The notes below the pieces were generated by a model. The model was not told the DNA's origin. It worked only from the letters and a program-made list of their open reading frames with translations, and searched no databases. Below are positions 31,636 through 58,704 of a stretch of DNA of 64,000 bases, piece by piece (within the stretch, counting starts at the first letter, position 1; every line of letters begins with the position of its first letter). The DNA lies in the NCBI RefSeq assembly GCF_036017915.1, contig NZ_CP107929.1:1302001-1366000 (forward strand). Reading direction: 5' to 3'. The stretch comes from Micromonospora sp. NBC_00421. GTDB lineage: Bacteria > Actinomycetota > Actinomycetes > Mycobacteriales > Micromonosporaceae. The position numbers and the translations under genes are program-made.

Positions 31636-31686
31636 GATGTCTCCTCGGAGTTGGACCTGCCCGTCCACCACGGCCTCTTCAGTCCC

Positions 31687-31884: not shown

Positions 31885-32060
31885 GGCCCCTCCTGCTGGT
31901 CGGGTGATCCGAGTAGGTGGGCCCGATCCTGCCGGGCCCACCCGCACCGTCCATAGAGACGAACGCGCAGAGGCGTCGTGCGGTCGCGTCCCTGTTCGGT
32001 GGTTCCCTGCGTCGCGCAGGCTCTGGTCACGGCGGATCGCCAACTGGAAGGGGGCTCGAC
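31885..32060. promoter_or_regulatory. Divergent intergenic region between mbtH-like and NRPS operons
   Basis: This 176-bp gap separates the minus-strand mbtH/ectB pair from the 20-kb plus-strand NRPS operon, so it must hold promoters for both. I could not recognise convincing -35/-10 hexamers. Confidence 0.4.
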
Positions 32061-36535: not shown

Positions 36536-37539
36536 TCCTCGGGGCGGGTGAGGTCCGCGCCGTCCTCGACGGGGCCGAGCACGAGGTGGTGTCCGCGGTG
36601 GACGCGGCGTACCGGTCGCACGCTCAGGGCCGCACGCGGGTACCGCAGTCGGTCTTCCTCCGCTTCCCGGACGGGGAGCGCGAACGGATCATCGCGCTAC
36701 CGGCCTTCCTGGGTGGTGCGACGCCGACCTGCGGGGTGAAGTGGGTGTCGTCCTTCCCCGGCAACCTGGGCCGGGGGATGCACCGGGCATCGGCCGTGAT
36801 GATCCTGAACTCGGTGCACACCGGGGTGCCGGAGGCGGTCCTCGAAGCGTCGGCGATCTCGGCCGGACGGACGGCCGCGAGCGCCGCCCTGGCGGCGGCG
36901 ACCCTCTCCTCGTCCCGCCCGGAAACCGCGGTGACCCTCGTCGGCTGCGGCCCGATCGGCTTCGAGGTGCTGAGGTATCTGCGGGCCGTACTACCGGCGC
37001 TGGACACCGTGACGTTGTACGACCTGAGCGCCGAACGGGCGCGGTCGTTCGCCGCCGAGGCGCTCTCGGTCTGGCCGACGTTGACTGTCGACGTGGCGCC
37101 GAGCGCGGCCGACGCCCTGGCCCGCCACCGACTCGTCTGCCTGGCGACGACGGCGAGCGCCCCGCACCTGGGCACCGAGCACTGCCGACCGGGGACGCTG
37201 GTGCTGCACCTGTCGTTGCGCGACCTCACCACCGACTCCATCCGTTCCAGCGTGAACATCGTCGACGACGCGGACCACGTCTGTCGGGCCGCGACGTCGT
37301 TGGACCTCGCCCAGCAGGAAGCCGGCCACCGCGACTTCATCTCGTCCTCGCTGGGCGAGATCCTGCTGACCGGTAAGCGGTACGTCAGGAGCGACGACGC
37401 CGTGACGGTGTTCTCCCCGTTCGGCCTCGGCTGCCTGGACCTGGCGGTGGCCGACCTGGTCCGGGCTGCGGCATCGGCCCGCGGCCTGGGCACCACCCTG
37501 GCGAACTTCCTACCGACGGAGCAGCAGGTGCGCGCATGA
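36529..37539 (+). CDS. sbnB: SbnB-like dehydrogenase, L-2,3-diaminopropionate forming
   Basis: 336 residues from ATG 36529, overlapping the SbnA stop by 7 bp. It belongs to the ornithine cyclodeaminase/mu-crystallin family: FLGGATPTCGVKWVSSFPGN near the substrate site, a nucleotide-binding stretch VTLVGCGPIGFEVLRYL, and the C-terminal VFSPFGLGCLDLAVADLV. SbnB oxidatively splits the SbnA product with NAD to L-Dap and 2-oxoglutarate. Similar pairs serve viomycin and capreomycin. The stop overlaps the NRPS start (ATGA), which couples precursor supply to the assembly line. An ornithine cyclodeaminase is unlikely given the SbnA partner. Confidence 0.92.
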   Translation: MLILGAGEVRAVLDGAEHEVVSAVDAAYRSHAQGRTRVPQSVFLRFPDGERERIIALPAFLGGATPTCGVKWVSSFPGNLGRGMHRASAVMILNSVHTGVPEAVLEASAISAGRTAASAALAAATLSSSRPETAVTLVGCGPIGFEVLRYLRAVLPALDTVTLYDLSAERARSFAAEALSVWPTLTVDVAPSAADALARHRLVCLATTASAPHLGTEHCRPGTLVLHLSLRDLTTDSIRSSVNIVDDADHVCRAATSLDLAQQEAGHRDFISSSLGEILLTGKRYVRSDDAVTVFSPFGLGCLDLAVADLVRAAASARGLGTTLANFLPTEQQVRA

Positions 37540-43500: not shown

Positions 43501-43979
43501 ACGACACCGGGCCCGACCTCGACGAGCTGCGGGCCTACCTGCGGGAGTCGCTGCCCTCGTACATGATCCCGTCGGCCTGGGTCACCGTCGCGGCCCTGCC
43601 GCTGTCACCGAGCAAGAAGGTCGACCGGGCGGCGTTGCCCGATCCGACACCACTCCAGCTCGACGGCGCCCGCGGGTACGTGGCACCGCGCAACCCGGCG
43701 GAGGAGACCATCGCCGCGATCTGGTCCGACATCCTCGGTGTCGACCGGATCGGCGTCGACGACGACTTCTTCGGACTCGGCGGGCACTCGCTGCTGGCCA
43801 CCCGGGTCCTGGCCCGGCTGCGGGCGGCCCTCGCCGTCGAGGTCCCGCTGCGCAGCCTGTTCGACGCGACCACCGTGGCGGAGTTGGCCGTGGTGGTGAC
43901 CGACCTGATCGCGGCGGAACTCGACGAGCTGACCGACGCCCAGCTCAGTGAACTGCTTTCCCGGGATGGTGCCCTGTGA
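37536..43979 (+). CDS. Nonribosomal peptide synthetase, C-A-PCP-C-A-PCP
   Basis: 2147 residues in two elongation modules; there is no loading module. C1 ~11-440 with HHIAFDG (His143/144). A1 ~470-980 with TSGSTGQPKG; my hand-read code is DAWQCATIDK, closest to the known Gln code DAWQFGLIDK. PCP1 Ser1015. C2 ~1065-1490 with HHIAFDN (His1202/1203). A2 ~1535-2035; code about DVDEMVNVTK, whose DV-E start recalls Dab codes such as DVGEISSIDK. PCP2 Ser2085. There is no epimerase, methyltransferase or release domain. The first C domain must accept an acyl or aminoacyl donor from elsewhere, possibly the polyketide. The stop overlaps the next NRPS start (GTGA), so the chain probably passes straight on. 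Suggested residues are ureidoalanine (Gln isostere) and diaminobutyrate, both inference. Confidence 0.96.
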   Translation: MTDILETGNQFRLSFEQEQLWFLDQVRSGAQEYLLHWGFRLRGPLDREALTAAFSEIVGRHEILRTRYATVDGQPVQIIEEPAPADLTVVDLSGYPAEEQDRRVREVGEVAVTTAIDLRTAAPWRLTVVQLSPREAILLIVVHHIAFDGPSLGVLARELGVLYAAHARGEEPPPEPLPPLELQYADFADWQRSRWSADDAALLRQLDYWRARLAGLTPLELPTDRQRPAVWEPAGDVVAFVVPASSAARILAVGRAARATPFMVFLAVYQLLISRYADQLDFGVGVSTSGRNRVELEPLIGSLAQTVVLRTELAGDPTFVELLGRVRETALDAFAHKDVPLQRLAAELAPDRSLSRNPLFQVGFAVLNGQGEPLRLPGIEVDWVPTPVLSATFDMSLQLVEEPDGSWVGRMTYPTALFDRGRIQRMADNYLALLENLAAAPEAPLRDVPTVTAAEQRRLLGGNPGPHEATDALLPHLFRARAEATPDAVAVVCGDVELTYAELMCRADGLAGFLHTRGVGVETAVGVAMHRGTDVVVALLGTLVAGAVYVPLAPDLPADRLEFMIDNAGVDLVLTETALRRRIPRRVPVMVLDEQWDDIARAAPPPPVALDAANAAYVMYTSGSTGQPKGVVITHGGIRNRVLWAVRQHQLTAADRVLQKTTIGFDASMWEFLAPLVSGGAVVMAPPDAHRDTAVLVGALAAHRITVVQLVPSVLRTVVDEPELAACGALRLVCSAGEPLPTDLCERLLGVLEVELYNTYGPTECSIDATAWRYERGATDGTVPIGVALPGVDLYVVDSADRLTPVGVPGELCVGGVGLARGYAGRGDLAAERFTPNPFASRPGQRWYRTGDLVRWRADGTLEFVGRLDAQVKVRGVRVEPGEVEAVLRAHPSVAAAVVTSYRSTAGDLELAGYVVPAAGATAEPDELSGFLATRLPAAMVPAAIVTLAELPSLPNGKVDRSALPAPDSRPRDDDPGHVAPRTPTERAVATVMGELTGVERVGVADDFFALGGHSLLAIRLAHRLRRRFGLELTVATLFDGRTVERVAAAIDAGTTPDSGPQIVPVPRTGALPTSFGQQRLWFLDQLEPGSAEYLIPMVYQLTGALDTAILHRAVEQVSARHEVLRTRYVADNGVPLQLVDPPGPVAFDVVDLTGTADAAPRARAIIGAASARPFDLTAERPLRVTVVHTAVDEHLVAVTLHHIAFDNWSLGIFLRELNEAYAAGLAGTPWSPQPLPVQYADVAAWQRDRQADGTIGSQIEYWRAQLAGLVPVELTPDRPRQPGRDLSGDLLIVDVPQATAAAARELGNRTGATLFMVLLAAFDVVLGRHTGRTDIAIGTPVAGRTRPESEDLVGFFVNNLVVRVDLGGEPTSLDLIDRVRRTTLKAFAHQEVPFEHLVDALQPDRDLSRNPLFQIMFEVQHTTGTSAATLAGCTAVGLDSGVAVAKFDLTLSVMEQPDGRLECWFEYATALFDRATVERLARQYLRLLSGMTADPHARIGDLDLLSADERHTIAHRWPDPDAHRLDLLDPPDERHLSVPELFARWVARTPDATAVVFGAERLGFAELDARVHALAHRLRAMGVGPEVVVGSCLERGFAPVVVLLAVLRAGGVYAPFDPEHPPERLRYMLADAGAHLVVTTGGFADRFAGHERPVLVVDDDEDRAVARSSADPAPVTVPDNLAYIIYTSGSTGRPKGVMISHRSYAHHCRVIADYYGIHPGERVVLLSALTFDVAMDQIGATLTAGATLVVSDPVFWTPSELPPKLEQYGVTIMEITPAYYREMLESGVDRLAGLKLMNVGSDVVTVADAQRWAATGLPGRFLCNYGPTEASVTCMLNPVSGDLADERGTATLHIGRAVAGTRVYVLDAGLRPLPVGVPGELCIGGVRLARGYHRRPELTAERFVPDPFGTEPGARLYRSGDLVRHRPDGTVEFLGRLDTQVKIRGFRIELAEIEAALATHPAVSAAVVVAKDVGPGDKRLVAYLEWPHDTGPDLDELRAYLRESLPSYMIPSAWVTVAALPLSPSKKVDRAALPDPTPLQLDGARGYVAPRNPAEETIAAIWSDILGVDRIGVDDDFFGLGGHSLLATRVLARLRAALAVEVPLRSLFDATTVAELAVVVTDLIAAELDELTDAQLSELLSRDGAL

Positions 43980-46900
43980 CTGAGACAATCGATCGAGCCG
44001 GTCTGCGCGCGGAGTTGCTTCGGCGCAGGCTCGCAGGTGCCGCGACCGCCGCGCCCGACGAAGGGATCGCCCGGGTGCCGCGCGGGACGCCGCCCGCGTC
44101 GTCGTTCGCGCAGCGCCGGCTGTGGATTCTCGACCAGGTCCGGCCGGGCGGCACGGAATACCTGGTCAGCGCGGGCCTTCGACTGTTCGGGCCGTTGGAG
44201 CCCGAGGCGCTGCGGGCGGCGCTGGACGGGATCGTGGCCAGGCACGAGGTGCTGCGCACCCGCTATGTGGTGGTCGACGGTGAGCCGTGCCAGCTGATCG
44301 ACGCTCCGCAGCCGGCCCCGCTGCACGAGGTGGACCTGCGTGGTCTCGACACCGCCGCGCAGGACGAGCGGATCGCCGGCTGGCTGACCCACGACCGGGC
44401 ACCCGTCGACCTCGCGACCGGGCCGGTGCTGACCGGAACCCTCGCGCGGCTGGCCGACGAGGAGCACGCGCTTGTCGTGACCCTGCACCACATCGCCTTC
44501 GACGGCTGGTCCGAGCAGGTGCTGTGGCGTGAGCTGGACCAGTTGTACCGGGCCGCGCTGACCGGCGGGCCGTCCCCGCTGGCACCACTGCCTGTGCAGT
44601 ACGCCGACTTCGCCGGCTGGCAGCGCGGCGTGCTGTCCGGCGCCACGCTGGACCGTCAGCTCGCCTACTGGCGGCAGGCGCTGGCCGGTGCCACCCCGGT
44701 GGAGCTGCCACTCGACCGGCCGCGCCCGCAGGTCCGGGACAGCGCCTGCGACGTGGTCCCGTTCGCGGTGCCCGCGTCGGACGCCCGTGCCCTGCACGAG
44801 CTCGCCCGCCGGGCCGGCGCGACGCCGTTCATGGTGCTGCTGGCCGGGTACGCGATCCTGCTCGGCCGGTTCGGCCGGAGCGACGACGTCACGGTCGGCA
44901 CCCCGGTGGCCTGTCGCGACCGGGCCGAGGTGCAGGACCTGATCGGGCTGTTCCTCAACACGCTGGTCCTGCGCGTCGACCTGTCCGGCGACCCGTCCTT
45001 CCCCGAGGTCCTGCGGCGGGTGAAGGAGATGGCGCTCGGCGCGTACGCCCACCAGGAACTCCCGTTCGAACGGCTGGTGGACGAGCTGGCCCCGGTACGC
45101 GACGCGTCCCGGACCCCGCTGTTCTCGACCATGTTCCTGTGGGCCGGCGGGGAGTCCGGGGCCCGCCACGTCGGCGGGCTGCGCGCCGAGGAGCTGCCGG
45201 TCGGTGAGAGCGACGCCAAGTTCGACCTGACGCTTGTGGTCGTCGACCAGCCCGACGGCACCCTCACCGGGTTCCTGAACTACGCCACCGCGCTGTTCGA
45301 CCGGGACACCGTCGAGCGGTTCGCGGCCCACTTCACCGCCCTCGTCGGCAACGTCGCGCGCCGGCCGGACGCCCCGATCAGCCGGTTGGCCGAGTCCCCA
45401 CCGGCGGAGCGGCGGCTGGTGCTGGGCAGGTGGAACGAGACCGACGTGGCGTACGGGACCGGCACCCTGCCGGAGCTGTTCGCGCGGCAGGCGGGCCGTA
45501 CCCCGGACGCCGTCGCCGTCCGCTTCGAGGGCGAGGACGTCACCTACGCCGAGCTGGACCGGCGGGCCGACCGGCTGGCGCGGTACCTGGTCGACGCGGG
45601 CGTCGGGCCGGAGTCGATCGTCGGAGTGTGCCGTCGCCGCGGCGTCGGGCTGGTGGTGGCCCTGCTGGCGATCCAGAAGGCCGGCGGCGCCTACCTGCCG
45701 CTGGACCCGGACCACCCGGCCGAGCGCCGTGACTACATGTGCGCCGACGCCGGTGCCACGATCGTGCTCACCGACGACGAACCGGTCGTCTCCGACACCG
45801 GGCCGGTGCCGGCGGGGGCGGTCCCGGCGGGGCCGGACCACCCCGCGTACGTGATCTACACGTCCGGCTCGACCGGCCAGCCCAAGGGGGTCGTGGTCAC
45901 GCACCGCGCGATAGTCAACCGGCTGCGGTGGATGCAGGACGCGTACCGGCTGGACGCCACCGACCGGGTGTTGCAGAAGACCCCGTACAGCTTCGACGTC
46001 TCGGTGTGGGAGTTCTTCTGGCCGCTGACCACCGGGGCCACCCTGGTGGTCGCCCGGCCCGACGGCCACCGCGACCCGCACTACCTGGCCGGACTGGTCG
46101 CCACCGAACAGATCACCACCCTGCACTTCGTACCGTCCATGCTCCGGGTGTTCCTGGCCGAGTCGTCCGGGCCGTTGCCGTCGGTGCGCCGGCTGATCTG
46201 CAGCGGCGAGGCGCTCCCCGCCGACCTGGCCGCCGCCGCCCACGAGCGGATCGGTGGCCGGCTGGACAACCTCTACGGGCCGACCGAGGCGGCCGTCGAC
46301 GTCACCGCGGCCCGGTGCGAGCCCGGCACGCCGGTCACGATCGGCAGGCCGATCGCCAACACGCGCACCTACATCGTCGACGGGAACCTGCGACCGGTCC
46401 CGATCGGCGTACCGGGTGAGCTGCTGCTGGGCGGTGTGCAGCTGGCCCGCGGCTACCTCCACCGCCCGGCGCTCACGGCGCAGCGGTTCGTTCCCGACCC
46501 GTTCGACGAGGCCGGCGGTGGGCGGCTGTACCGCACCGGTGACCTCGCGAGGTACCTGCCGGACGGCCGCATCGACTACCTCGGCCGGCTCGACGACCAG
46601 GTGAAGATCCGCGGGCACCGCGTGGAACTCGGCGAGATCGAGGCGGTGGCGGCCGAGCATCCGGGCGTGTCCGCGGTCGCCGTCACGGTGCACGACGGCC
46701 AGCTCGTCGGCTACCTCGTCGCCCGGGGGACGGGCGTCGAGGTGGGCGAGGTGGCGTCGTTCCTGCGCCGTCGGCTGCCCGAGGCGATGATCCCGAGCCA
46801 CTGGCAGCTGCTCCCCGCGCTGCCCCTGACCACCAGCGGGAAGACGGACCGCCGTGCGCTGCCCGCCCCGACGTCCGGTCGCGGCGGAGCGGCCGGAGAG

Positions 46901-49900
46901 TACGTCGCCCCCCGTACCGCCGCCGAAGGCGTCGTCGCCGACGCACTCGGTGCGGCGGTGGGCGTCGCCCGGGTCGGTGTGCACGACCGGTTCTTCGACA
47001 TCGGCGGCGACTCCATCCGCGCGATCCGCGCGATCGGGGCCCTGCGCCGCGCGGGGCTGGACCTGTCGGTGCAGGACATCTTCACCCACCAGACCGCGGC
47101 GCAGCTGGCGACGCTCGCCGACCGGCCGGCGACCGGTGCGGACGACCCGCTGGTCGGCCCGTTCGAGCAGATCGGCCCGGCCGACCGCGAACGGCTCCCC
47201 GACGGCCTCGTCGACGCCTACCCGATGGGCCAGGTGCAGGCCGGCATGGTGTACGAGATGCTCGTCGACGACTCGCACCCGGCGTACCAGAACGTCACGA
47301 GCTTCGACATCGTCGACGACGGCCCGTTCTCCCTGGCCGCGTTGCGCGACGCCGGGCAGTGGCTGGTCGACCGGCACGAGATCCTGCGTACCACCTTCGA
47401 CATGTCCGGCTACTCCGAGCCCATGCAACTCGTCCACGCCAGCGCGCGGGTCGAGATCGGCTTCGACGACCTGCGCGGGCTCCCGGAGGCCGAACAGCAG
47501 GACGTCCTGGCGCGGTACCGGCACACGATGCACTCGACGAGGCTGCCCGTCGACCACGCACCGCAGCTGCGCTGGCACGTGCACCGCACCGGGGAGCGGA
47601 CGTGGGTGCTGACCCACACGGAGTGTCACGCCATCCTGGACGGCTGGAGCCACCACTCCCTCATCGGTGAGCTGCGGGACACCTACCGGGCGATCCGGGA
47701 CTCCGACACCGACGCGCTGAAGCCCCCGCCCCCGGGGCGCTACGCCGACTTCGTCAGGTGGGAACGGCGGTCGCTGTCCTCCGGGGCGGACCAGGGGTTC
47801 TGGCGGGACCGCGTCGGTGACCACGACCGGGTCGCCCTGCCGGCGGACACCGCCCCGGCCGGCCACGGCGCGGTGCCGGAGCTGCGGATGTCCTGGCGGC
47901 ATCTCGAACCGCAGCTACGGCAGCTGGCCGCCCGGACGCAGACCTCACTCAAGGCCGTGCTGCACACCGCGCACCTCGCGATGCTCGGCGTCATCACCGG
48001 CCAGCGGCGGTTCTTCAGCGGTCTGGTGGTCAACGGCCGACCCGAGTTGCTACGCGGCGACGAGGTCATGGGGATGTACCTCAACACCGTGCCGTTCGCG
48101 GTGGACCTGCGTACGCCCCGGTGGCGCGACCTCGTGCGCGCCGTGTTCGCCGAGGAGCTCGCCGTCTGGCCGCACCGGCGCTACCCGATCCCCGCGATGC
48201 AACAGAGCTGGGGCGGCGGCACGCCACTGGTCAGCGCCATCTTCTCCTATCTCGACTTCCACGTGCTCGACGCGCAGCAGGACGTGTTCGGCGCGGTCGT
48301 CGACGACAGCCCCAACGAGTTCACCCTGGTCACCTTGACCTTCCCGGGTGAGCTGCGACTGGAGTGCCGGGCCGGCTGGGCGACGCAGGAGCGGCTGACC
48401 GCCCTGGGGGAGACCTTCCTCGCGATGCTCGCCGCGATGGTCGCCGACGACGGCGCCGGTCCGGTGGACCTCGGCGGGACCCCGGCACACCGGTTCACCG
48501 TGCCGCAGCGGGACTGGCCCGCGCTGCCCGAGGTCTGCGTCACCGACCTGTTCACCACCCAGGCACACGCCCGGCCGGACGCCGTCGCGCTCGAGTGCGG
48601 CGAGTCGCGCCTGACCTACGGCGAGCTCGACGCCCGGGCCAACCAGCTGGCGTGGGCGCTTCGTGAGCAGGGCGCCGGCCCGGAGACGCCGGTCGCGGTG
48701 TGCATGGACCGCGGGATCGACGCGGTGGTCGCGCTGCTCGGCATCCTCAAGGCCGGTGCCTGCTACCTGCCGCTCGACCCGAAGTACCCGGACGACCGCA
48801 TCGGGTACCTCCTCGACGACTCCGGCACCCGGATCCTGCTGAGCGGGCCGGGCCATGCCCACCGTTTCGCGACCCGCGCCGGGCTGACCACGCTGAGCCT
48901 GGACCCCGGCTGGTGGTCGCACAGCAGCCTGCCGACCAGCGCGCCACCGGTGGCCCTGTCCCCGGAGAACCTCGCCTACATCACGTACACGTCCGGGTCC
49001 ACCGGGCGTCCGAAGGGCGTGCTGGTCCCGCACCGGGGCGTCGTACGGCTGGTGCACGGTCAGGACTACGTGCGGCTGGACGCCGACCAGGTCCTGCTGC
49101 AGGCCGGCACGCTCGCCTTCGACGCGTCGACGTTCGAGGTCTGGGGCGCGCTGTGCAACGGGGCACGACTGGTCGTCGCCCCGGAGACGCCCACCGCAGC
49201 CGAGCTCGAGGAGATCCTGCGCCGGCACGGGGTGACCGTGCTGTGCCTGCCCACTGGCCTCTTCGCCACCATCCTGGACGTCCGGCCGCAGGCGCTGGCC
49301 GGGGTACGCGAGGTGGTGGTCGGTGGGGAGGTGCTGTCTCCGCTGCACGTGCGTACGGCGATGGCGCACGGTGTGGTGGTCAGCAACGGGTACGGCCCGA
49401 CCGAGAGCACCACGTTCGCCACCGTCCACCCACGGATTCCGCTGCCCGCGGTCACCGATGCCATCCCGATCGGGAAGCCGATCAACCACACCTACGTGCA
49501 GGTCGTCGACGAGAACCTCGATCCGGTTCCGTTCGGTGTGCCGGGTGAGCTGCTGCTGGGCGGGCCGGGCGTCGCCCGGGGATACCAGGGCCGGCCGGAC
49601 CTGACCGCCGAACGCTTCGTACCGGACCCGTCCGGGGACTCGCCGGGGAACCGGCTCTACCGCACCGGGGACATCGTCCGCCAGGACCCGGACGGCACGC
49701 TCCGCTTCGTCGGGCGGCGCGATCACCAGGTGAAGATCCGCGGACACCGCGTCGAGTTGGGCGAGGTGGAGGTCGCGCTCGCCGAGCTGCCCCCGGTGCG
49801 GGCCGCCGCGGCGGCGGCGTACCAGGGTGTCGACGGGATCAAGCAGCTCGTCGGCTACGTCGTCCTCGACGAGGACGGCCCGACCGACCCCGCCCGGCTC

Positions 49901-51127
49901 GGCGACCTGATGCGGAGCCGGGTGCCCGGCTTCCTGGTCCCGACGGCCTGGGTACGCCTGGACGGGCTTCCGTTGAACAACAACGGCAAGCTCGACCGGG
50001 CCGCGCTGCCCCGGCCGGTGGCGGGCACGTCGGCACGGGAGTACAGCGCACCGCGTACGCCGACGGAACTGGCGGTGGCGGAGGTCTGGACCGATCTGTT
50101 CCACCTGCCCCGGGTCGGCCGGGACGACGACTTCTTCGACCTCGGTGGGCACTCGCTGCTGACGTTGCGGGCGATCGCGATGCTGCGGGACCGGCACGGC
50201 ATCGAGACGACCGTGCGGTCCTTCGTCGAGCACCGCACGCTCGCGGCGCTCGCCGAGTCGATCGATCGCCACCGGTCGCCGGCCACGGCGTTGCTCTGGC
50301 TGCGCCGTACCGGTGACAAGCCCCCGCTGGTGTGCGTGCATCCCGGCGGCGGCAGCGCGCACTGGTACCGGCGGCTGGCCGAACACCTCGACCCGGACCT
50401 GCCGGTGGTCGCGTTCGAATGGCCGGGCCGTGACCCGTCGACCGGCGCGGTCCCGTCCACCGAGGAGATGGCGGCCCGCTACGTCGCGGAGCTGCGGGCG
50501 GACGTCCCGCACGGGCCGTACCGGATCTTCAGCTGGTGTGGCGGCGGCGGGGTGAGCAGCGAGATGGCCACCCGGCTGGCGGACGACGGCGAGGAGGTCA
50601 CCTTCATCCTGCTCGACCCGGGGCAGGACGCCTGGCAGAAGGAGCACCTCTGGGACGAGTACGCCCTGATCAGGAAGTGCGTGACGAACCTGGAGCGGCT
50701 CGACGCGGCACCGCCGGACGAGGACACCTCGGTGCTCCGGCAGGAGACCCTGGCGCTGCTCGAACACATCGTGGACGACATCGTCGGCAACGACGGCATC
50801 ACCCTGCCCGAGCGCGGCGCGGGGACGATGTGGCTGCCCGCCGCGCGGATGTGGGAGGAGGTCATGGAGATGGTGCTGTCCTACCGTGACCGCCCGTACG
50901 CCGGTCACCTGGACCTGATCGTCAGCGACGAACTGGCGCTGGGCGCGCACGAGGTCGTCAGCTCCGGGCAGAGCTTCGACGACTACCTGCAGCGGTGGCG
51001 GGAACGGACCGGCGAGGTGGCGGTCCACCGGATGAAGGGTGAGCATTTCTCGGTCATGAAGGAGTACGTGGCGGACCTCGCCCACATCGTGACGACGCTG
51101 ATCGACACGCCGGCCGGGCGACGGTGA
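43976..51127 (+). CDS. Nonribosomal peptide synthetase, C-A-PCP-C*-A-PCP-TE with Cys thioesterase
   Basis: 2383 residues from GTG 43976. C3 has HHIAFDG (His171/172). A3 code reads DVWHISLVDK, a clear serine code. PCP3 is of the GGDSIRAIR type (Ser1013), although no epimerase follows. C4 (~1080-1500) is unusual: the motif reads ECHAILDG (His1218 and Asp1222 kept, first His replaced by Cys1217), and its N-terminal half (YPMGQVQAGM, LRTTFDMSGYSEPMQLVH) resembles condensation domains that follow Ser modules which become dehydroalanine, such as in McyA. A4 code reads DAFCVGGTFK, Val-like (DAFWIGGTFK) with Trp to Cys at position 278. PCP4 Ser2060. The thioesterase (~2100-2370) has Cys2188 in SWCGGGG in place of GxSxG, with Asp2214 and His2357. 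This gene ends the peptide line. Confidence 0.96.
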   Translation: MTETIDRAGLRAELLRRRLAGAATAAPDEGIARVPRGTPPASSFAQRRLWILDQVRPGGTEYLVSAGLRLFGPLEPEALRAALDGIVARHEVLRTRYVVVDGEPCQLIDAPQPAPLHEVDLRGLDTAAQDERIAGWLTHDRAPVDLATGPVLTGTLARLADEEHALVVTLHHIAFDGWSEQVLWRELDQLYRAALTGGPSPLAPLPVQYADFAGWQRGVLSGATLDRQLAYWRQALAGATPVELPLDRPRPQVRDSACDVVPFAVPASDARALHELARRAGATPFMVLLAGYAILLGRFGRSDDVTVGTPVACRDRAEVQDLIGLFLNTLVLRVDLSGDPSFPEVLRRVKEMALGAYAHQELPFERLVDELAPVRDASRTPLFSTMFLWAGGESGARHVGGLRAEELPVGESDAKFDLTLVVVDQPDGTLTGFLNYATALFDRDTVERFAAHFTALVGNVARRPDAPISRLAESPPAERRLVLGRWNETDVAYGTGTLPELFARQAGRTPDAVAVRFEGEDVTYAELDRRADRLARYLVDAGVGPESIVGVCRRRGVGLVVALLAIQKAGGAYLPLDPDHPAERRDYMCADAGATIVLTDDEPVVSDTGPVPAGAVPAGPDHPAYVIYTSGSTGQPKGVVVTHRAIVNRLRWMQDAYRLDATDRVLQKTPYSFDVSVWEFFWPLTTGATLVVARPDGHRDPHYLAGLVATEQITTLHFVPSMLRVFLAESSGPLPSVRRLICSGEALPADLAAAAHERIGGRLDNLYGPTEAAVDVTAARCEPGTPVTIGRPIANTRTYIVDGNLRPVPIGVPGELLLGGVQLARGYLHRPALTAQRFVPDPFDEAGGGRLYRTGDLARYLPDGRIDYLGRLDDQVKIRGHRVELGEIEAVAAEHPGVSAVAVTVHDGQLVGYLVARGTGVEVGEVASFLRRRLPEAMIPSHWQLLPALPLTTSGKTDRRALPAPTSGRGGAAGEYVAPRTAAEGVVADALGAAVGVARVGVHDRFFDIGGDSIRAIRAIGALRRAGLDLSVQDIFTHQTAAQLATLADRPATGADDPLVGPFEQIGPADRERLPDGLVDAYPMGQVQAGMVYEMLVDDSHPAYQNVTSFDIVDDGPFSLAALRDAGQWLVDRHEILRTTFDMSGYSEPMQLVHASARVEIGFDDLRGLPEAEQQDVLARYRHTMHSTRLPVDHAPQLRWHVHRTGERTWVLTHTECHAILDGWSHHSLIGELRDTYRAIRDSDTDALKPPPPGRYADFVRWERRSLSSGADQGFWRDRVGDHDRVALPADTAPAGHGAVPELRMSWRHLEPQLRQLAARTQTSLKAVLHTAHLAMLGVITGQRRFFSGLVVNGRPELLRGDEVMGMYLNTVPFAVDLRTPRWRDLVRAVFAEELAVWPHRRYPIPAMQQSWGGGTPLVSAIFSYLDFHVLDAQQDVFGAVVDDSPNEFTLVTLTFPGELRLECRAGWATQERLTALGETFLAMLAAMVADDGAGPVDLGGTPAHRFTVPQRDWPALPEVCVTDLFTTQAHARPDAVALECGESRLTYGELDARANQLAWALREQGAGPETPVAVCMDRGIDAVVALLGILKAGACYLPLDPKYPDDRIGYLLDDSGTRILLSGPGHAHRFATRAGLTTLSLDPGWWSHSSLPTSAPPVALSPENLAYITYTSGSTGRPKGVLVPHRGVVRLVHGQDYVRLDADQVLLQAGTLAFDASTFEVWGALCNGARLVVAPETPTAAELEEILRRHGVTVLCLPTGLFATILDVRPQALAGVREVVVGGEVLSPLHVRTAMAHGVVVSNGYGPTESTTFATVHPRIPLPAVTDAIPIGKPINHTYVQVVDENLDPVPFGVPGELLLGGPGVARGYQGRPDLTAERFVPDPSGDSPGNRLYRTGDIVRQDPDGTLRFVGRRDHQVKIRGHRVELGEVEVALAELPPVRAAAAAAYQGVDGIKQLVGYVVLDEDGPTDPARLGDLMRSRVPGFLVPTAWVRLDGLPLNNNGKLDRAALPRPVAGTSAREYSAPRTPTELAVAEVWTDLFHLPRVGRDDDFFDLGGHSLLTLRAIAMLRDRHGIETTVRSFVEHRTLAALAESIDRHRSPATALLWLRRTGDKPPLVCVHPGGGSAHWYRRLAEHLDPDLPVVAFEWPGRDPSTGAVPSTEEMAARYVAELRADVPHGPYRIFSWCGGGGVSSEMATRLADDGEEVTFILLDPGQDAWQKEHLWDEYALIRKCVTNLERLDAAPPDEDTSVLRQETLALLEHIVDDIVGNDGITLPERGAGTMWLPAARMWEEVMEMVLSYRDRPYAGHLDLIVSDELALGAHEVVSSGQSFDDYLQRWRERTGEVAVHRMKGEHFSVMKEYVADLAHIVTTLIDTPAGRR

Positions 51128-52690: not shown

Positions 52691-52740
52691 CCGTCCTCAT
52701 GCCGGCGTCGACGGCACCGTCCTCATGCCGGCGTCGACGG
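52691..52740. repeat. 24-bp direct repeat, period 26, across the LnmK-like stop codon
   Basis: Two exact 24-bp copies (52691-52714 and 52717-52740) are separated by CA. The second contains the stop codon and the last codons of the minus-strand gene; the first lies just downstream. It looks like a small tandem duplication with no visible function. Confidence 0.85.
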
Positions 52741-53655
52741 CGTTTCCGTCTCGATCGCCGCGACCGCCAGCAGCCGGCCGGTGGTGGACTCGCGGAGCTC
52801 GAGGTCGGCGATCTCGGAGAGCGGGTCGGCGACGTTCTGCCATCTCCGCGCGGTGATGGTGAAGAGCGCGCCTAGGTCGGCATTGCCGAAGAAGCCCACC
52901 TTCTGGTCGATCACCCGCCGCTGGAGGAACTGTCGCTCGCTACGGCCGAGCCCGCGCCACAGTCGCAACAGCGCGGTGTCGAAGATCGAGAAGTACGAGG
53001 CGAAGTAGACCAGTCCGGCGCCGTTGATGTCCCGTACGGCGTCCAACGCGTACGCGAAGGACTGCTCCTGCCCGGCGAGCGTGAATCCGGGCGGCCCCGG
53101 AGCGCAGAAGCTGCCCGCGTGACGGGCCCGGCCGACGAGCGTACGTGGTGAGAACCGATTGGGAAGTCGCGGTAGATCGACGTGGTCGAAGTCGTGGGGG
53201 ACGGTTTCGGTGAGGACCCGGTTGCTGTCCGGACGGCCACGCGCGATCCACCGGTTGAGCGTCTCCGCGTACATGCACTCCGGGTTCGGCGTCTCGTAGA
53301 ACTCCGCCGGATCGAGGACCGCGGTGCCGGGGCCGGAACCGGCGGGCGCGAGCCGGTGCAGGGTGAGCACCGAGCCGCCGCCGAACTGGAAGACCCTCGA
53401 CGTCACGTCGAGCTCGTCGCCGAAGGTCAGGCCGTGCGGATGAACGACCTTCCCGCCACGCACCCGGTAGTAGTAGAACGACAGATAGGTAGGTTGGCCC
53501 TCGGCGGTACGGGCGGCGTGCACGTTGGTGCGGCAGGCCTCGGCCACCGACTCCCACGTCCAGTCACCGATCCGCCCGAAGATCAGTGAGCCACCGCTGC
53601 ACATCCCCGGCGCGACGACCACCCTCCGGGGGAGGGCTGTGTTCTCCGGCATCAT
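52723..53655 (-). CDS. LnmK-like bifunctional acyltransferase/decarboxylase
   Basis: 310 residues from ATG 53655, overlapping the aminotransferase stop (ATGA). From memory it matches LnmK of leinamycin biosynthesis along its whole length: FGRIGDWTWE near the start, TYLSFYYYRVRGG, FGDELDVTSRVF, SVLTLHRLAP, then NPECMYAETLNRW followed by DSNRVL, and FASYFSIFDTALLRLWRGLGRS in the second half. LnmK has a double hot-dog fold; it loads methylmalonyl-CoA on itself, decarboxylates it and passes propionyl to a discrete ACP. A discrete ACP is encoded two genes upstream. The usual leinamycin partners (HMG-CoA synthase-like enzyme and branching machinery) are not in the window, so propionyl-ACP probably has another fate here. 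Confidence 0.82.
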   Translation of the reverse strand: MMPENTALPRRVVVAPGMCSGGSLIFGRIGDWTWESVAEACRTNVHAARTAEGQPTYLSFYYYRVRGGKVVHPHGLTFGDELDVTSRVFQFGGGSVLTLHRLAPAGSGPGTAVLDPAEFYETPNPECMYAETLNRWIARGRPDSNRVLTETVPHDFDHVDLPRLPNRFSPRTLVGRARHAGSFCAPGPPGFTLAGQEQSFAYALDAVRDINGAGLVYFASYFSIFDTALLRLWRGLGRSERQFLQRRVIDQKVGFFGNADLGALFTITARRWQNVADPLSEIADLELRESTTGRLLAVAAIETETPSTPA

Positions 53656-54701
53656 CCCACCGTTCCCGTCGTGAGCAGTTCCGCCGCCCTGCGGATACGC
53701 CACCGGCGCACCGCCGCGAGGAACGCGTCGTTGTCCGCGGGCGAACCGATCGACACCCGAACGCCGTCACCGTCGAAGACCCGCGTCTCGACACCGGCCC
53801 GTGCACACCAGCGGCCGAACGGGCCCGCGTCCTCGCCGAGCCCGAGCCAGACGAAGTTGGCCTGGCTGACGGGAACCGCGAAGCCGTCGGCGAGCAGGGC
53901 CGCGCGCACCCGGGTCCGCTCGGCGATCGTCTCCCGGGCCCGCGTCAGGAGCACCTCCTCGACGCCGAGGGCGGCGATCGCCGTGCGCTGGGCCGGACCG
54001 CTCACCGCGTAGGGCAACGCCATCTCGCGCAGCGACGCCACGACGTGTGGGGCGCCGACGAGGTAGCCGACCCGAAGTCCCGCCAGGCCGTACGCCTTCG
54101 AGAACGTGCGCAGGACCACCAGGTTCGGATACCTGTCGCACAGCGCGAGGCCGCCGGCCCCGGCGGGCTCGTCGACGTACTCGAAGTACGCCTCGTCCAG
54201 GGCCACCAGGCAGGTCGGCGGGGTGCGATCGAGGAACGCGCGCAGCTGTTCCGGGCCGACCAGGGTGCCCGTGGGGTTGTTGGGATTGCAGATGACGACC
54301 AGCCGGGTGGTGGCGGTGATCCGATCGGCCATGGCGGTGAGGTCGTGCGTGTCGTCGACCAGCGGCACCCGCTCCGAGCGGACCCCCAGCTGGTCGGCGA
54401 GGACCGGGTAGTACTCGAAGGACCGCCAGGCGTAGACGGCCGTGGCCCCCGACCCGGCGAGCTGGAACAGCGACTGGAGCAACGCACAGGACCCGGCGCC
54501 CACCGCCACCCGGTCGGCCTCCACACCGTGGCGGTCGGCGAGCGCCAGGATCAGGTCGGTACACGCCGGGTCGGGATAGCGGTTGACGTCCCGGCCGCCC
54601 GCCGCCACCGAGGCGACGATGTCGGGCAGCGGGTCGTGTGGCGACTCGTTGCGCGACAGGCCCCGGGTGGCGGCGTGGGACGGCCCGGCGGTCTCACCCA
54701 C
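53652..54701 (-). CDS. PLP aminotransferase, histidinol-phosphate aminotransferase-like
   Basis: 349 residues from GTG 54701, which overlaps the ACP stop by 8 bp; the frame is open to 54917 only as a shadow of the ACP gene. It is a class I/II aminotransferase of the HisC type: SRNESPHDPLP near the N-terminus, ICNPNNPTG, VALDEAYFEYVDE, and the PLP lysine in TFSKAYGLAGLRVGY. HisC-type enzymes in secondary metabolism aminate 2-oxo acids. In this operon the likely substrate is the branched unsaturated 2-oxo acid made by the aldolase, hydratase and methyltransferase. A role in primary histidine synthesis is unlikely because no his genes are near. Confidence 0.9.
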   Translation of the reverse strand: MGETAGPSHAATRGLSRNESPHDPLPDIVASVAAGGRDVNRYPDPACTDLILALADRHGVEADRVAVGAGSCALLQSLFQLAGSGATAVYAWRSFEYYPVLADQLGVRSERVPLVDDTHDLTAMADRITATTRLVVICNPNNPTGTLVGPEQLRAFLDRTPPTCLVALDEAYFEYVDEPAGAGGLALCDRYPNLVVLRTFSKAYGLAGLRVGYLVGAPHVVASLREMALPYAVSGPAQRTAIAALGVEEVLLTRARETIAERTRVRAALLADGFAVPVSQANFVWLGLGEDAGPFGRWCARAGVETRVFDGDGVRVSIGSPADNDAFLAAVRRWRIRRAAELLTTGTVG

Positions 54702-54921
54702 GACAGCGCTCCGCGACCAGATCGGCGATGTCGCCGACGGTCGCGAGCTCCAGCAGTTCGTAGTCGGAGACCTCGATGTCCAGCCGCTGGCTGAGCAGGG
54801 CCGACAGCTCGACCACGGTGAGCGAGTCGAGGCCCACCTCGGCGCGGTCGGCGGTGGCGACGACGTCCTCGGTGCGCATCTGCAGGTCCTCGACCAGAAT
54901 GGCCTTGAGTTGGTCAAACAT
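54694..54921 (-). CDS. Discrete acyl carrier protein
   Basis: 75 residues with the phosphopantetheine serine S33 in [11 protein letters not shown]. Acidic and helical throughout, with the usual length of type II ACPs. It lies between the aldolase gene (8-bp overlap) and the aminotransferase gene. The nearest functional precedent is LnmL, the ACP that receives propionyl from LnmK. Here it may carry a propionyl group to the acylating aldehyde dehydrogenase-like enzyme, or deliver a starter to a PKS. Confidence 0.93.
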
Positions 54922-55978
54922 GGCTCGTCATCCGTTCACCTCGACCCGTGGAGCCGGCACGCAACGTGAGCGTCACGTCCTCGATGAGGTCCTCCTGTCC
55001 GGCCACCGCCTGCAGGCGGCCCAGCGCGAAGAAGACGTCGCGCGGATCGACGCCCTCGCGGGCGGCGACGTCCAGCACCCGGTTCCTGAATCCGGAGAAC
55101 ACCCCGGCGAGACCACTCACCACGCCTATCGAGTCGATGGTGGGCGGTGCGGGCATCAGTTCCCGTTCGGCGATGTCCGCCGCGTCCAGCAGCCGGTAGA
55201 GGTCGATGCCGGTGTGGTAGCCCAGCCGTTCGAGCACGGGCACGAGGACCTCCAACTGCGTGTTGCCGGCCCCCGCGCCGAACCCCCTGGCGCAGGCGTC
55301 CAGGATGGTGGCGCCCGCCTCGGCGGCGGCGATCGAGTTCGCCACCGCCATACCGAGATTGTTGTGCCCGTGGAACATCACCGGCACGTCGACCGCGGAC
55401 CGGATGGCCGCGATGCGCGTGCTCACGTCCGGCGGCAGGTAGTAGCCGGAGGAATCGAGGATTCCCACGCCGGTCGCGCCGAACCCGACGAGCCGCGCGC
55501 ACTCCTCGGCCAGGCGCTCGGGAGTCGCCATGTGGCTCATCAGCAGTACGCCGTGGGCGTCGACGCCCACGTCGCGCAGCAGCCCGAGGTGCCGTTCGGC
55601 CAGGTTGCCCTCGGTGCAGTGGGTGCCGATCCGGACGAGGTCGACGTCGTACGAGATGGCCTGCCGGAGGTTCTCGGTGGTGCCCCAGCCCGGCAGCATG
55701 AACACCCCGAGCCTGCTGGTCGACAACGCGTCCCGGACCACCGAGAGCATCGCCGCGTCGCTGAGCAGGGCGCGGCCGGCCTGGAGGGAGGAGGCGCCCA
55801 GGCCGTTGCCGTGCCCCACCTCGACGACGGGCACCCCGGCCGCGTCGGCGGCCTCGGCGTACGCCCGGAGCTGGTCCCGCCCGAGTTGGTGGCGGACGGC
55901 GTGGTGGCCGTCGCGCAACGTCGGGTCGTGGATCAGGATCGGTCGCCCCGGCGTGTTCTCCACGGCTTGCCGGCTCAT
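54914..55978 (-). CDS. 4-hydroxy-2-oxovalerate aldolase-like enzyme (DmpG family)
   Basis: 354 residues from ATG 55978 (ATGA overlap with the dehydrogenase). It starts [15 protein letters not shown], the metal- and pyruvate-binding motif of HMGL-like aldolases. [13 protein letters not shown] and [15 protein letters not shown] follow, with the metal-binding His pair in the latter, and [14 protein letters not shown]. The C-terminal helices that bind the partner dehydrogenase are present. DmpG cleaves 4-hydroxy-2-oxo acids to pyruvate and an aldehyde, and the reaction is reversible. With no ring-cleavage dioxygenase or other catabolic gene nearby, the synthetic direction (pyruvate plus aldehyde) seems likely. 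DmpG and DmpF normally form a channelling complex and both are here. Confidence 0.92.
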
Positions 55979-56874
55979 GATGCCCCCTCCAGGACGTCGA
56001 TCGGTCGGCGTGCCACCGCACAGCGCTCGGCGACCCGGATCGCCGCGGAGTTGATGATGTCGAGGTTGCCCGCGTAGGCGGGTATCTGGTCGCCCGTGGA
56101 GGTCACCTCCACGGCGATGAACGCCCTGCTGTCGTCCGCCACGAGGCAACTCGTCACGGTGTAGCCGGCGGCGAAGGCACGGACGTCGGCGGCGGCGGCG
56201 GCCACGAGTGGGCGCACCGAATCGGGTGTCAGCCCCGCGCCGATCAGGGAGATGGCCACCCGGAAGGTCGCCGGAGGACGGGCCGGGCTGATGTTGAGGA
56301 TGGCCTTCACGTCCCCGACGCCGGTGAACTCGCGCAGCGCGTCCTGGGTGGTCTCCACGTACTCGTCGATGTTCAGCCTGGTCCCACGGCCGACGCTGAG
56401 CGTCGCGGCGGTCGCGACCACCTCCACGTAGTCGACGCGGTGGGCCCGCGCGACCGCCCGGACGATCGGCACCGCCGCCTGTCCGCCGCAGCTGACCATG
56501 TTGAGGTCGCGGTGGGCGGTGACGTCCGCGCCGTTCACGGTGGGGACGACCATCCGCCCGATCCGGCTGGGCGTCAGGTCGACCAGCAGCGTGCCGAGCG
56601 GTGCCAGCGCCTCGGCGTGTTCGGCGTGCGAGCCGGCGTCGGTGGCGTCGAAGACCACGTCGAGCGGTGCGTCGAGGTCGGCCAGTGCGGGCAGGCCCCG
56701 GCTCGTGACCGGCAGCCCCAGCCGGGCGGCCCGCTTGAGGCCCGGGCTCTCGGCCGTCCGGCCGACGACGAGGTGAAGGTCCAGGGCGGCGGACCGGTCG
56801 GCCTTCATCGCCAGGTCGACGCCGATGAGTCCGGCGCCGAGTACCCCGACTGACAGCCGTCGTTCTGGATTCAT
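55975..56874 (-). CDS. Acylating aldehyde dehydrogenase (DmpF family)
   Basis: 299 residues from ATG 56874, which follows AGGAAGG; an alternative ATG at 56913 would overlap the hydratase stop by 8 bp and add 13 residues. The NAD site [15 protein letters not shown] starts at about residue 9. The catalytic cysteine lies in [12 protein letters not shown], as in DmpF (NMVTCGGQA). [18 protein letters not shown] and the C-terminal NLDIINSAA helix are typical. The family interconverts acetaldehyde and acetyl-CoA. Run in reverse it would reduce an acyl thioester to an aldehyde for the partner aldolase. Given the LnmK-like enzyme, the acyl group may be propionyl, on CoA or on the discrete ACP. Confidence 0.92.
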
Positions 56875-56905
56875 CGAGGGGATCGCCTTCCTACCCGGGT
56901 CGTGA

Positions 56906-57721
56906 CTACGCATGCGCTACGTGCAGGGTGACCGCGCCCAGCTGGTCGAATTCGGCGGTGTAGGTGTCGCCGGGGCGCAGCGGGACCGCGGCGTGCAGGG
57001 CACCGGTCATGATCAGCTGCCCGGCCTCCAGCGTGACGCCGTTCTCGCCCAGCAGGTTCGCCAGCAACGCCACCACCGCCACCGGGTCGCCCAGGGCGTC
57101 GGCGCCCCGACCGGACGCGACCAGCTCCCCGTTGCGGCGGAAGGCCATTCGTACGAGCCGGTGGTCCAGGTCCGGGCGGGCCGGGACCGGACGTCCCAGG
57201 ACGGCTGCGCCGTTCGAGGCGAGGTCGGCGATCGTGTCGCCCAGTCGGATGCGCCAGTCCGCGATCCGGGAGTCGACGATCTCGAGACCGGCGACGACCT
57301 CTCCGATCGCCGCGTGGGCCTGCTCCACCGTGACGCCGGGACCGGTCAACGGGCTCGCCAGCCGAAAGACGATCTCGGCTTCCACCTTCGGCGAGATGAA
57401 CTCGCCAGGAGCGAAGCGGGTGCCGTCCGGGTGGACGGTCGAGGCGAACACCGGGCCGTAGTCCGGTGCGTCGACCCCGAACATCTCCTGCATCGAGGTG
57501 GAGGTGAGCCCGGCCTTGTAACCGATCACCCGCTCGCCGTCGGCGACCAGCAGGTCGGTCAGCCGACGCTGGACGGCGTAGCCGCCCGCCGCGTCGAGCG
57601 TGGGGCGGGTGTCGGTGAACGGGGCGATCGGTACGCGTCTTTGCCGCGCCTCGTACAGGGCCCGGGCCATCCACTCGGCGTCGTGCTCCGCCAGGGCCGG
57701 TGATCCGTCGTTCCGGCTCAT
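56906..57721 (-). CDS. 2-oxopent-4-enoate hydratase-like enzyme (DmpE family)
   Basis: 271 residues from ATG 57721 (ATGA overlap with the methyltransferase stop). It has the fumarylacetoacetase-like fold of 2-keto-4-pentenoate hydratases: VIGYKAGLTSTSMQEMFGVD early, SPKVEAEIVF with metal-binding Glu residues, ALEIVDSRI-like GLEIVDSRIADW, and a C-terminal ITGALHAAVPL-like stretch. In catabolism it hydrates 2-hydroxypenta-2,4-dienoate to 4-hydroxy-2-oxopentanoate. Here it may work in reverse to dehydrate the aldol product to a 2-oxo-4-enoic acid. A decarboxylase of the same superfamily is the other possibility. Confidence 0.9.
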   Translation of the reverse strand: MSRNDGSPALAEHDAEWMARALYEARQRRVPIAPFTDTRPTLDAAGGYAVQRRLTDLLVADGERVIGYKAGLTSTSMQEMFGVDAPDYGPVFASTVHPDGTRFAPGEFISPKVEAEIVFRLASPLTGPGVTVEQAHAAIGEVVAGLEIVDSRIADWRIRLGDTIADLASNGAAVLGRPVPARPDLDHRLVRMAFRRNGELVASGRGADALGDPVAVVALLANLLGENGVTLEAGQLIMTGALHAAVPLRPGDTYTAEFDQLGAVTLHVAHA

Positions 57722-58704
57722 CGGGTGGCCACGAAGAGCCGGCTGCCGGGCATCGGCAGGGGGGTGCTGGTCACGTCGGAGAAGCCGGCCTGCCGGAAGA
57801 GTTCGCACCACTGGTCCTCGGCCGGCAGCCGTACACCCATCGCACTCTCGTGGAGGTAGCTGAACAGGGCACTGAAGGCGCGCTCGCCCGGTGTGTCCAC
57901 GTACGGCACCGCATCGGTGACCACCAGGCAGCCGCCGTCGGCGAGGTGGTCGCGGCACGACCGCAGGACACCAGCGAAGACCTCGGGAGTCTGCGCGACG
58001 TCGTGCATGACGAAACCGGCGTGGACGATGTCCGCGCCGGCGAGGGGACCCGGGTCGTCCACGAGCGTCTCGACGGACCGGTTGACCACCGTGAGCCGAT
58101 CGCCCACCTGGGCGCGGTGACCGGCGCGTTCGGCCTCCTCGCACGCCCCCGGGCTGAGGTCCAGGGCCACGCCGGTGCTGGTGGGCAGCTCGGTCAGCAG
58201 CCGGATCAGCAACGCGCCCGCACCGGCGCCGAGATCGACGATGCGCCGGGGCTTGCGGCTGATGATCTCGGACAACACCCCGGGATAGAAGCCGTACGAG
58301 CCGATCCAGCGGGACGAGACCGCCACCCGTCGGCCGTCGCGCTGGTGGTGCCGGCCGGCCGTCTCCGGTTCGCGCAGGAACCGCTCGGCGTGATCGATGT
58401 ACGGCCGGTTGGCGTTGAGCGACCAGGAGAGGTAACCCGCCTCGTACCTGCGGTCCGCGAGCTGGGCGCAGGGCGCGAACAGCCCGGTCTCGGCGTCGTG
58501 CTCGAGCAGACCGGCGGCGACCATGGCGCGCAGGAACGGCAGGATGCGCGCTTCGGCGACGCCGGCCGCCGCCGTTGCCTCGGCCAGCGTGAACGGCGTC
58601 CCACGGTCGAGCAGCGGTGAGAGTCCCAGATTCTCGGCGATCTCCAGGAGAGTGGCATTCGCCGCCAGATCCGCAGCGATTCCACTGACGTCAGAACTGA
58701 TCAC
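57718..58704 (-). CDS. SAM-dependent methyltransferase, MppJ-like 2-oxo acid C-methyltransferase
   Basis: 328 residues from ATG 58704. An N-terminal helical dimerisation/winged-helix region (~1-110) precedes a Rossmann SAM domain with VDLGAGAGALLIRLL. The layout resembles MppJ, the iron-dependent phenylpyruvate C3-methyltransferase of mannopeptimycin. From memory, MppJ's iron-binding His-Asp (MGHDF) and His (FGHDMMG) align with FVMHDV and YLHESAMG here, the latter followed by GVRLPAEDQW as in MppJ (GVYLPTLDEW). This suggests methylation at C3 of a 2-oxo acid before transamination, not O-methylation. It is the first gene of the seven-gene minus-strand operon; GGGGTGA lies just before the start. 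Confidence 0.83.
   Translation of the reverse strand: MISSDVSGIAADLAANATLLEIAENLGLSPLLDRGTPFTLAEATAAAGVAEARILPFLRAMVAAGLLEHDAETGLFAPCAQLADRRYEAGYLSWSLNANRPYIDHAERFLREPETAGRHHQRDGRRVAVSSRWIGSYGFYPGVLSEIISRKPRRIVDLGAGAGALLIRLLTELPTSTGVALDLSPGACEEAERAGHRAQVGDRLTVVNRSVETLVDDPGPLAGADIVHAGFVMHDVAQTPEVFAGVLRSCRDHLADGGCLVVTDAVPYVDTPGERAFSALFSYLHESAMGVRLPAEDQWCELFRQAGFSDVTSTPLPMPGSRLFVATR

Follow-up and report, generated by a model that had tools for sequence, protein, structure and literature searches.

The enzyme families of DmpE, DmpF and DmpG, namely 2-oxo-enoate hydratase, acylating aldehyde dehydrogenase and pyruvate aldolase, are those of a catabolic meta-cleavage lower pathway and recur as HsaE, HsaF and HsaG; the Hsa set of steroid degradation reportedly handles a C6 oxo acid and propanal. 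The same three families are found in a seven-gene operon of Micromonospora sp. NBC_00421, which lies in the window analysed here (64,000 nucleotides, positions 1302001–1366000 of a one-contig genome of 7.23 Mb; G+C 71.6%; coordinates below are those of the window). Compared with the Dmp and Hsa sets, the operon differs in its proposed direction, in the clade of its aldolase and the Phe291 of that enzyme, and in its partners: a discrete acyl carrier protein (ACP), an LnmK-type acyltransferase/decarboxylase, a methyltransferase and an aminotransferase. We consider it fairly probable, from gene content and comparison of related loci, that the operon makes a precursor used by the adjoining nonribosomal peptide synthetase (NRPS), and that in this pathway LnmK would supply propionyl-ACP for reduction to propanal, and an aldol step would lead on to a C7 amino acid for module 4.

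Parts of this chemistry are known from other systems. For the 2-amino-3,5-dimethylhex-4-enoic acid (ADH) unit of cyclomarin, isobutyraldehyde derived from valine is described as being homologated with pyruvate (PMC8068612), and a second source likewise describes it from valine and pyruvate (PMC8401383). Compared by printed chemistry only, both routes lead from an aldehyde and pyruvate to a β-methylated 4-enoic amino acid; the difference is the aldehyde, for which a propionyl unit is proposed here. SgvM of viridogrisein performs C3-methylation of α-ketoleucine (PMC10502145). It shares C3-methylation of an aliphatic 2-oxo acid with the proposed pathway and is the closest solved structure to the operon methyltransferase, for which the proposed substrate is instead an unsaturated C6 oxo acid. 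As in leinamycin biosynthesis, a member of the LnmK family adjoins a discrete ACP; the leinamycin LnmK product serves β-alkylation, whereas propionyl-ACP is proposed here as the source of an aldehyde.

Among the closest known gene sets are two nikkomycin-like loci (L103 and L112). Locus L112 also contains an aryl-AMP (adenosine monophosphate) ligase-like gene, a B12-binding mutase-S-like gene (below cut-off), a cytochrome P450, a thioesterase, an MbtH–adenylation–thiolation protein, a 2-oxoglutarate oxygenase and a radical S-adenosylmethionine protein, and we take the content of both loci to resemble the nikkomycin set with NikA, NikB and NikT. Like the operon, they combine an ACP and a HisC-like aminotransferase with an acylating aldehyde dehydrogenase and an aldolase of the sister clade. 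Nevertheless, there are clear differences. The first is that the ACP and aminotransferase are fused in these loci (435 and 443 residues in L103 and L112, respectively), but are two overlapping genes here. The second is the aryl-AMP ligase, which is absent from the seven operon genes, where LnmK is found instead; conversely, the two 21-kb loci gave no match to LnmK, the hydratase or the methyltransferase. For nikkomycins, a homothreonine part and picolinate activation have been described (PMC4021061).

The initial annotation of this DNA knew of no described pathway with this set. A lack of precedent is not supported, given the cyclomarin homologation (PMC8068612) and the nikkomycin-like loci, in which the ACP–aminotransferase fusion adjoins aldehyde dehydrogenase and aldolase of the same types. 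The exact gene combination was not found described among the titles and abstracts listed, which cover few subscription journals. The operon is a real, conserved and biosynthetic-looking unit of known chemistry in a combination not found described.

Gene content and proposed pathway

The seven genes all lie on the minus strand, from 58704 to 52723, in the order methyltransferase, hydratase, aldehyde dehydrogenase, aldolase, ACP, aminotransferase and LnmK. Five of the six junctions overlap (methyltransferase/hydratase by 4 nt, aldehyde dehydrogenase/aldolase by 4, aldolase/ACP by 8, ACP/aminotransferase by 8 and aminotransferase/LnmK by 4), and the sixth, hydratase/aldehyde dehydrogenase, is separated by 31 nt that include a ribosome site resembling AGGAAGG. 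The seven-gene set on one strand with overlapping junctions, as first annotated, is therefore borne out, and so are its named families, with a correction for the first gene. The methyltransferase (57718..58704; PF08242, 6.7e-13) had been called MppJ-like; it is of the 2-oxo-acid C3-methyltransferase type, but MppJ (8.5e-15) was dropped as its nearest relative in favour of the structures 8ftv and 8ftr (1.6e-85), with which it has the His motifs GFVMHD and SYLHE in common. Both entries carry the label methyltransferase only, and we take them to be SgvM since they differ at positions 144, 329 and 331, as does the engineered SgvM M144V F329V T331A. By sequence, the operon enzyme is thus related to a proven 2-oxo-acid C3-methyltransferase.

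The hydratase-like protein (56906..57721), a proposed dehydratase, has TIGR03220 (DmpE) as its best family (1.8e-64) and shares the VEAEI, GLE and Lys positions with the 2-keto-4-pentenoate hydratase 1sv6 (1.9e-44). The aldehyde dehydrogenase (55975..56874) exceeds the TIGR03215 cut-off (288.1 bits against 282.25) and has its Cys in SCGGQA, and the aldolase (54914..55978) exceeds that of TIGR03217 (355.7 against 286). The discrete ACP (54694..54921; PF00550, PP-binding, 7.3e-13) contains a GLDSL motif. The aminotransferase (53652..54701; PF00155, 1.8e-45) has its Lys in TFSKAYG and chain 4r2n as its closest solved relative; it scores 400.1 bits for PRK03321 (cut-off 374) and 245.4 for hisC TIGR01141, which is under the cut-off of 276.55. 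Finally, LnmK (52723..53655) matches PF18238 (1.7e-72), TIGR04098 (292.3 bits, cut-off 100) and 4hzo (3.8e-89), and shares a PTYL region with the leinamycin enzyme; decarboxylative transfer from methylmalonyl-CoA (coenzyme A) is predicted. The presumed active-site residues are all present: two His motifs in the methyltransferase, Glu and Lys positions in the hydratase, a Cys in the aldehyde dehydrogenase, the Ser motif of the ACP and a Lys in the aminotransferase.

From these features we infer the reactions and their product, the acyl group, the use of ACP rather than CoA by the aldehyde dehydrogenase, and that dehydration comes before methylation. LnmK would move a propionyl group from methylmalonyl-CoA onto the discrete ACP, and the aldehyde dehydrogenase would reduce the propionyl thioester, most likely ACP-bound, to propanal. 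The aldolase would join propanal to pyruvate to give 4-hydroxy-2-oxohexanoate, from which the DmpE-like enzyme would take out water to leave 2-oxohex-4-enoate or its dienol. Methylation at C3 by the SgvM-like enzyme and amination by the HisC-like aminotransferase would then yield 2-amino-3-methylhex-4-enoic acid, a plausible product that module 4 would activate as the last residue before thioesterase release.

The first step bears on an alternative in which the logic is the same but the acyl group or the donor is not: acetyl from malonyl would lead to 2-amino-3-methylpent-4-enoic acid, or 2-oxobutyrate could replace pyruvate, as is reportedly the case for nikkomycin. The functions of LnmK relatives of this branch are predicted ones, and the nikkomycin-like aldolases belong to the sister clade (97/89), both of which lend this alternative some weight. 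We consider it unlikely, however, because the LnmK structures are titled methylmalonyl-CoA:ACP acyltransferase/decarboxylase, and a 2-oxobutyrate donor would be needless given a dedicated C3-methyltransferase.

Conservation of the operon

The full operon occurs in the same order in four further genomes among the 160 of the genus (G241, G168, G310 and G327), with gene identities of 82–97% save for a shortened aminotransferase in G241. It also recurs in the same order in a genome of another genus, G037 (methyltransferase 68, hydratase 72, aldehyde dehydrogenase 66, aldolase 79, ACP 60, aminotransferase 64 and LnmK 69% identical). Since both recur in other genomes, the gene set and its order are not due to chance. 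LnmK itself is found in 19 of 250 genomes of the family, and most of these genes are apparently used elsewhere, as operon partners occur in the 3.5-kb loci of just four of the 19 (G000, which is the genome of the window, G241, G168 and G037).

A scan of named genomes matched 282 aldolase relatives, and the locus counts that follow cover the best 80 of these, with an operon-gene match defined as tblastn E ≤ 1e-6, identity ≥ 35% and ≥ 50 residues; some loci end at contig ends. LnmK was found in 14 loci, and all 14 contain the ACP, aldehyde dehydrogenase, aldolase and hydratase, with LnmK and the ACP directly behind the aldehyde dehydrogenase and aldolase in every case. These genes are on the same strand in 13; the exception, L106, has a hydratase of 43% identity on the opposite strand. 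In 48 of the 66 loci that lack LnmK, the aldehyde dehydrogenase and aldolase are the only genes of the operon set. LnmK with the ACP as the likely acyl source, as suggested at the outset, therefore gains support by sequence, and LnmK is the likely loader. If this is true, the operon would represent an ACP-to-aldehyde-to-amino-acid route with a constant aldol core and a side chain set by the loader. This role would fall to LnmK in the operon, to an aryl ligase in the nikkomycin-like loci and perhaps to 3-ketoacyl-ACP synthase III (KAS III) elsewhere.

Several observations weigh against the proposed pathway. To our knowledge, neither an assay nor a product is known for this operon. The methyltransferase is matched in 11 of the 14 LnmK loci and unmatched in three; as the copies of L100 and L106 are on the opposite strand and only 51–52% identical, it is in line in only nine, and the step is not fixed. 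Nor is the amination step, since the aminotransferase is matched in 11 of 14, with no match between ACP and LnmK in the other three; the copy in Micromonospora matsumotoense (L097, G241) is shortened by about 0.5 kb, around 11283–11799. The hydratase scores 217.6 bits for TIGR03220, below the NCBIfam cut-off of 408.8. This score raises the alternative that the enzyme does not act as proposed and that the 4-hydroxyl stays, giving 2-amino-4-hydroxy-3-methylhexanoic acid or a lactone; the homothreonine unit of nikkomycins does retain its hydroxyl (PMC4021061). Such a product seems improbable given the presence of the hydratase in 14/14 LnmK loci and its retention of the Glu/Glu/Glu and Lys positions of solved hydratases. 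Lastly, the sister loci described below (class B) and L114 have the aldehyde dehydrogenase and aldolase with ACP and LnmK undetected, so that LnmK and the ACP might serve a separate purpose (a propionyl starter or cap) while the aldehyde dehydrogenase acts on propionyl-CoA. We hold this to be doubtful, if the least so of the alternatives, as both genes stand directly behind the aldehyde dehydrogenase and aldolase throughout the LnmK loci, and the ACP is fused to the aminotransferase in nikkomycin-like loci.

Three of the LnmK operons (L104, L105 and L113) gave no methyltransferase match in the stretch examined; they are predicted to make unmethylated 2-aminohex-4-enoic acid. A residue of this acid in ilamycin is made by a polyketide synthase (PKS; PMC8401383).

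The aldolase clade

The operon aldolase retains R17, D18, H21, H200 and H202 of DmpG, but the active-site Tyr291 of DmpG is replaced by Phe, and Leu88 is likewise Phe (DmpG numbering). Among 30 loci of the genus, 16 have Phe291 and 14 have Tyr291; the latter are 48–68% identical to DmpG and are labelled catabolic-type from this likeness alone. A tree of 66 aldolases is split into two sides at a support of 100/100, with Phe291 in 50/50 rows of the operon side and Tyr291 in 16/16 of the DmpG side; long branches were flagged by the software at this split. Of the rows, 42 come from the 80 named loci (the 14 LnmK loci, two nikkomycin-like, five with an ACP, two mixed, all eight with only the hydratase added and 11 of the 49 with aldehyde dehydrogenase and aldolase only or aldolase alone) and 24 are others (three operon genomes, five class B loci, the 14 DmpG-like genus loci and the chains 1nvm, which is DmpG, and 4jn6, which we take to be HsaF). 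Phe at DmpG position 291 offers a sequence marker of a large aldolase clade of non-catabolic appearance.

These results bear on whether the operon is simply a catabolic meta-cleavage lower pathway, as its DmpE, DmpF and DmpG families could imply. That reading is disfavoured by context, aldolase clade and active-site residue, and we regard it as extremely improbable: an NRPS adjoins the operon, its aldolase is in a separate clade with Phe291, and catechol 2,3-dioxygenase, the sole ring-cleavage family searched genome-wide, gave three weak matches and none over cut-off. No ring-cleavage gene was seen among the identified window genes, some judged by eye only, in agreement with the initial annotation. 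In the whole genome, the aldehyde dehydrogenase family of the operon has a single copy, which is inside the operon, and of six HMGL-type matches only the operon aldolase reached E ≤ 1e-30 against the aldolase query. The biosynthetic context proposed earlier is supported by sequence. The idea of meta-cleavage enzymes run in reverse needs correction: the aldolase is more than a reversed catabolic enzyme, since it belongs to its own clade and its active site is altered at one residue.

In the related aldolase BphI, which accepts propionaldehyde, Y290F abolishes stereocontrol at C4, and Y290F combined with L87W or L87N inverts it to 4R (PMC3962088). Because of these mutants, the natural Phe/Phe pair at positions 88 and 291, present in 17/17 LnmK-operon rows of the tree, suggests by analogy that C4 stereochemistry is relaxed or inverted. 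The C4 stereocentre disappears if water is then removed.

Within the operon side, the sister group of the Micromonospora-operon aldolases comprises those of L103, L112 and five other ACP-bearing loci (97/89). A further point against the proposed pathway is that the LnmK-bearing aldolases are not monophyletic but require three changes, at least two of them forced by starred branches; gain or loss of LnmK has therefore probably happened repeatedly.

Other members of the clade occur in different settings. Genus aldolases of 71% identity were first read as catabolic, but have Phe291 and form another, biosynthetic-looking class; in L090 (1746–11133), the aldehyde dehydrogenase and Phe291 aldolase are found with ornithine cyclodeaminase, HpcH/CitE, MaoC, JmjC/Cupin_8, aminotransferase and M24 aminopeptidase genes. 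Similar loci with only the aldehyde dehydrogenase and aldolase include, among the matches listed, those of Serratia and Xenorhabdus. Eight loci (L154, L158, L160, L167, L170, L171, L173 and L174) have the hydratase and aldolase without LnmK, and six of the eight have Ala or Gly at the position of BphI Leu89, where L89A lets BphI use longer aldehydes (PMC3962088). A KAS III-like gene, assigned by eye, is near the aldolase in L158 and in L111, which is not among the eight.

The fourth NRPS module and neighbouring genes

The four-module NRPS is encoded on the plus strand by two genes, one for modules 1 and 2 (37536..43979; codes DAWQVSTID and DVDEMVNVT) and one for modules 3 and 4 (43976..51127; codes DVWHLCLVD and DAFCVVGTF), and terminates in a thioesterase, as assigned with Pfam. 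Codes were taken at aligned motif positions, and we take DVWHLCLVD to be Ser-like and DAFCVVGTF to be Val-like. A sister NRPS cluster in G297 contains, within 60 kb, counterparts of SbnA (71% identical), SbnB (58%), the carbamoyltransferase-like (66%), EctB-like (52%) and TauD-like (74%) genes and the NRPSs (57 and 53%). It has its own aldehyde dehydrogenase (42%), aldolase (51%), methyltransferase (49%) and hydratase (45%), and its 20-kb locus gave no match to LnmK, the ACP or the aminotransferase, where a short diverged ACP could escape detection. The first three adenylation domains of the two clusters have the same codes and are 62, 67 and 68% identical, whereas the fourth (48581..49976, plus strand, in the window) is unrelated to its counterpart, which has the code DAWTLTAVV and an identity of 45%, within the range of 42–51% for unlike pairs. 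The condensation domains (51–56%) and the thioesterase (57%) are at an ordinary level.

The same division is seen in further genomes. The last code is DAFCVVGTF in 5/5 same-genus bearers of the seven-gene operon (the window, G241, G168, G310 and G327), including G168, in which codes 1 and 2 are slightly different (DAWLVSTID and DVDEIVTVF), and DAWTLTAVV in 4/4 sister clusters with the last module in view (G297, G325, G314 and G301); in G295, a fifth genome with the sister genes, the 20 kb in view showed no adenylation domain. Gene content, active-site motifs, co-conservation and this co-variation with the module-4 adenylation domain can be read from the sequence itself. The sister cluster, whose precursor genes are different, keeps the first three adenylation domains, and its fourth is unrelated; module 4 is therefore the most likely user of the operon product. 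The simplest account would be a joint exchange of the precursor genes and the last adenylation domain. A Val-like module as the likely user, an early suggestion, is supported by sequence. Against this, DAFCVVGTF was not seen in the LnmK loci of G037, Streptomyces and Amycolatopsis, which have other codes and NRPSs partly in view, so that the link to module 4 rests on one genus. This NRPS could not be matched to a named product.

We advance a fuller account only tentatively, as a little short of probable: LnmK-made propionyl-ACP would give propanal, a dedicated aldolase clade of relaxed or inverted (4R) stereochemistry would join it to pyruvate, and the cassette would be swapped between NRPS clusters with a matching adenylation domain, its methyltransferase-less form leading to 2-aminohex-4-enoic acid. 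The proposed pathway predicts unsaturated residues in uncharacterised peptides, and engineering could be guided by a natural swap of precursor genes together with the adenylation domain.

Among the matches listed, the nearest named relatives at the locus are Micromonospora sp. ATCC 39149, M. matsumotoense and Verrucosispora sediminis, and conservation with G241 and G168 continues beyond the end of the window. Homologues of SbnA and SbnB (35267..37539, plus strand; TIGR03945 and TIGR03944, both over cut-off) probably supply 2,3-diaminopropionate to the same NRPS. Other plus-strand neighbours are an EctB-like gene, a carbamoyltransferase-like gene (below cut-off) and a standalone adenylation domain; carbamoyltransferase-like and EctB-like genes are near both the window NRPS (30385–33008) and the G297 sister NRPS (L081), and the Gln-like code of module 1 may fit carbamoylated diaminopropionate. 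Past the operon are regulators and thioesterase-like, TauD-like and condensation-like genes, the last three assigned by eye and without an NCBIfam match. A type I PKS upstream (15–27280; also L009:12579–17039), with dehydratase/ketoreductase modules, was weighed as the partner of the operon, but is probably a separate cluster because it has its own terminal thioesterase. The genes ahead of it look by eye to include two AMP ligases flanking an aminolevulinate synthase, which together with the PKS suggests a polyene with a C5N unit.

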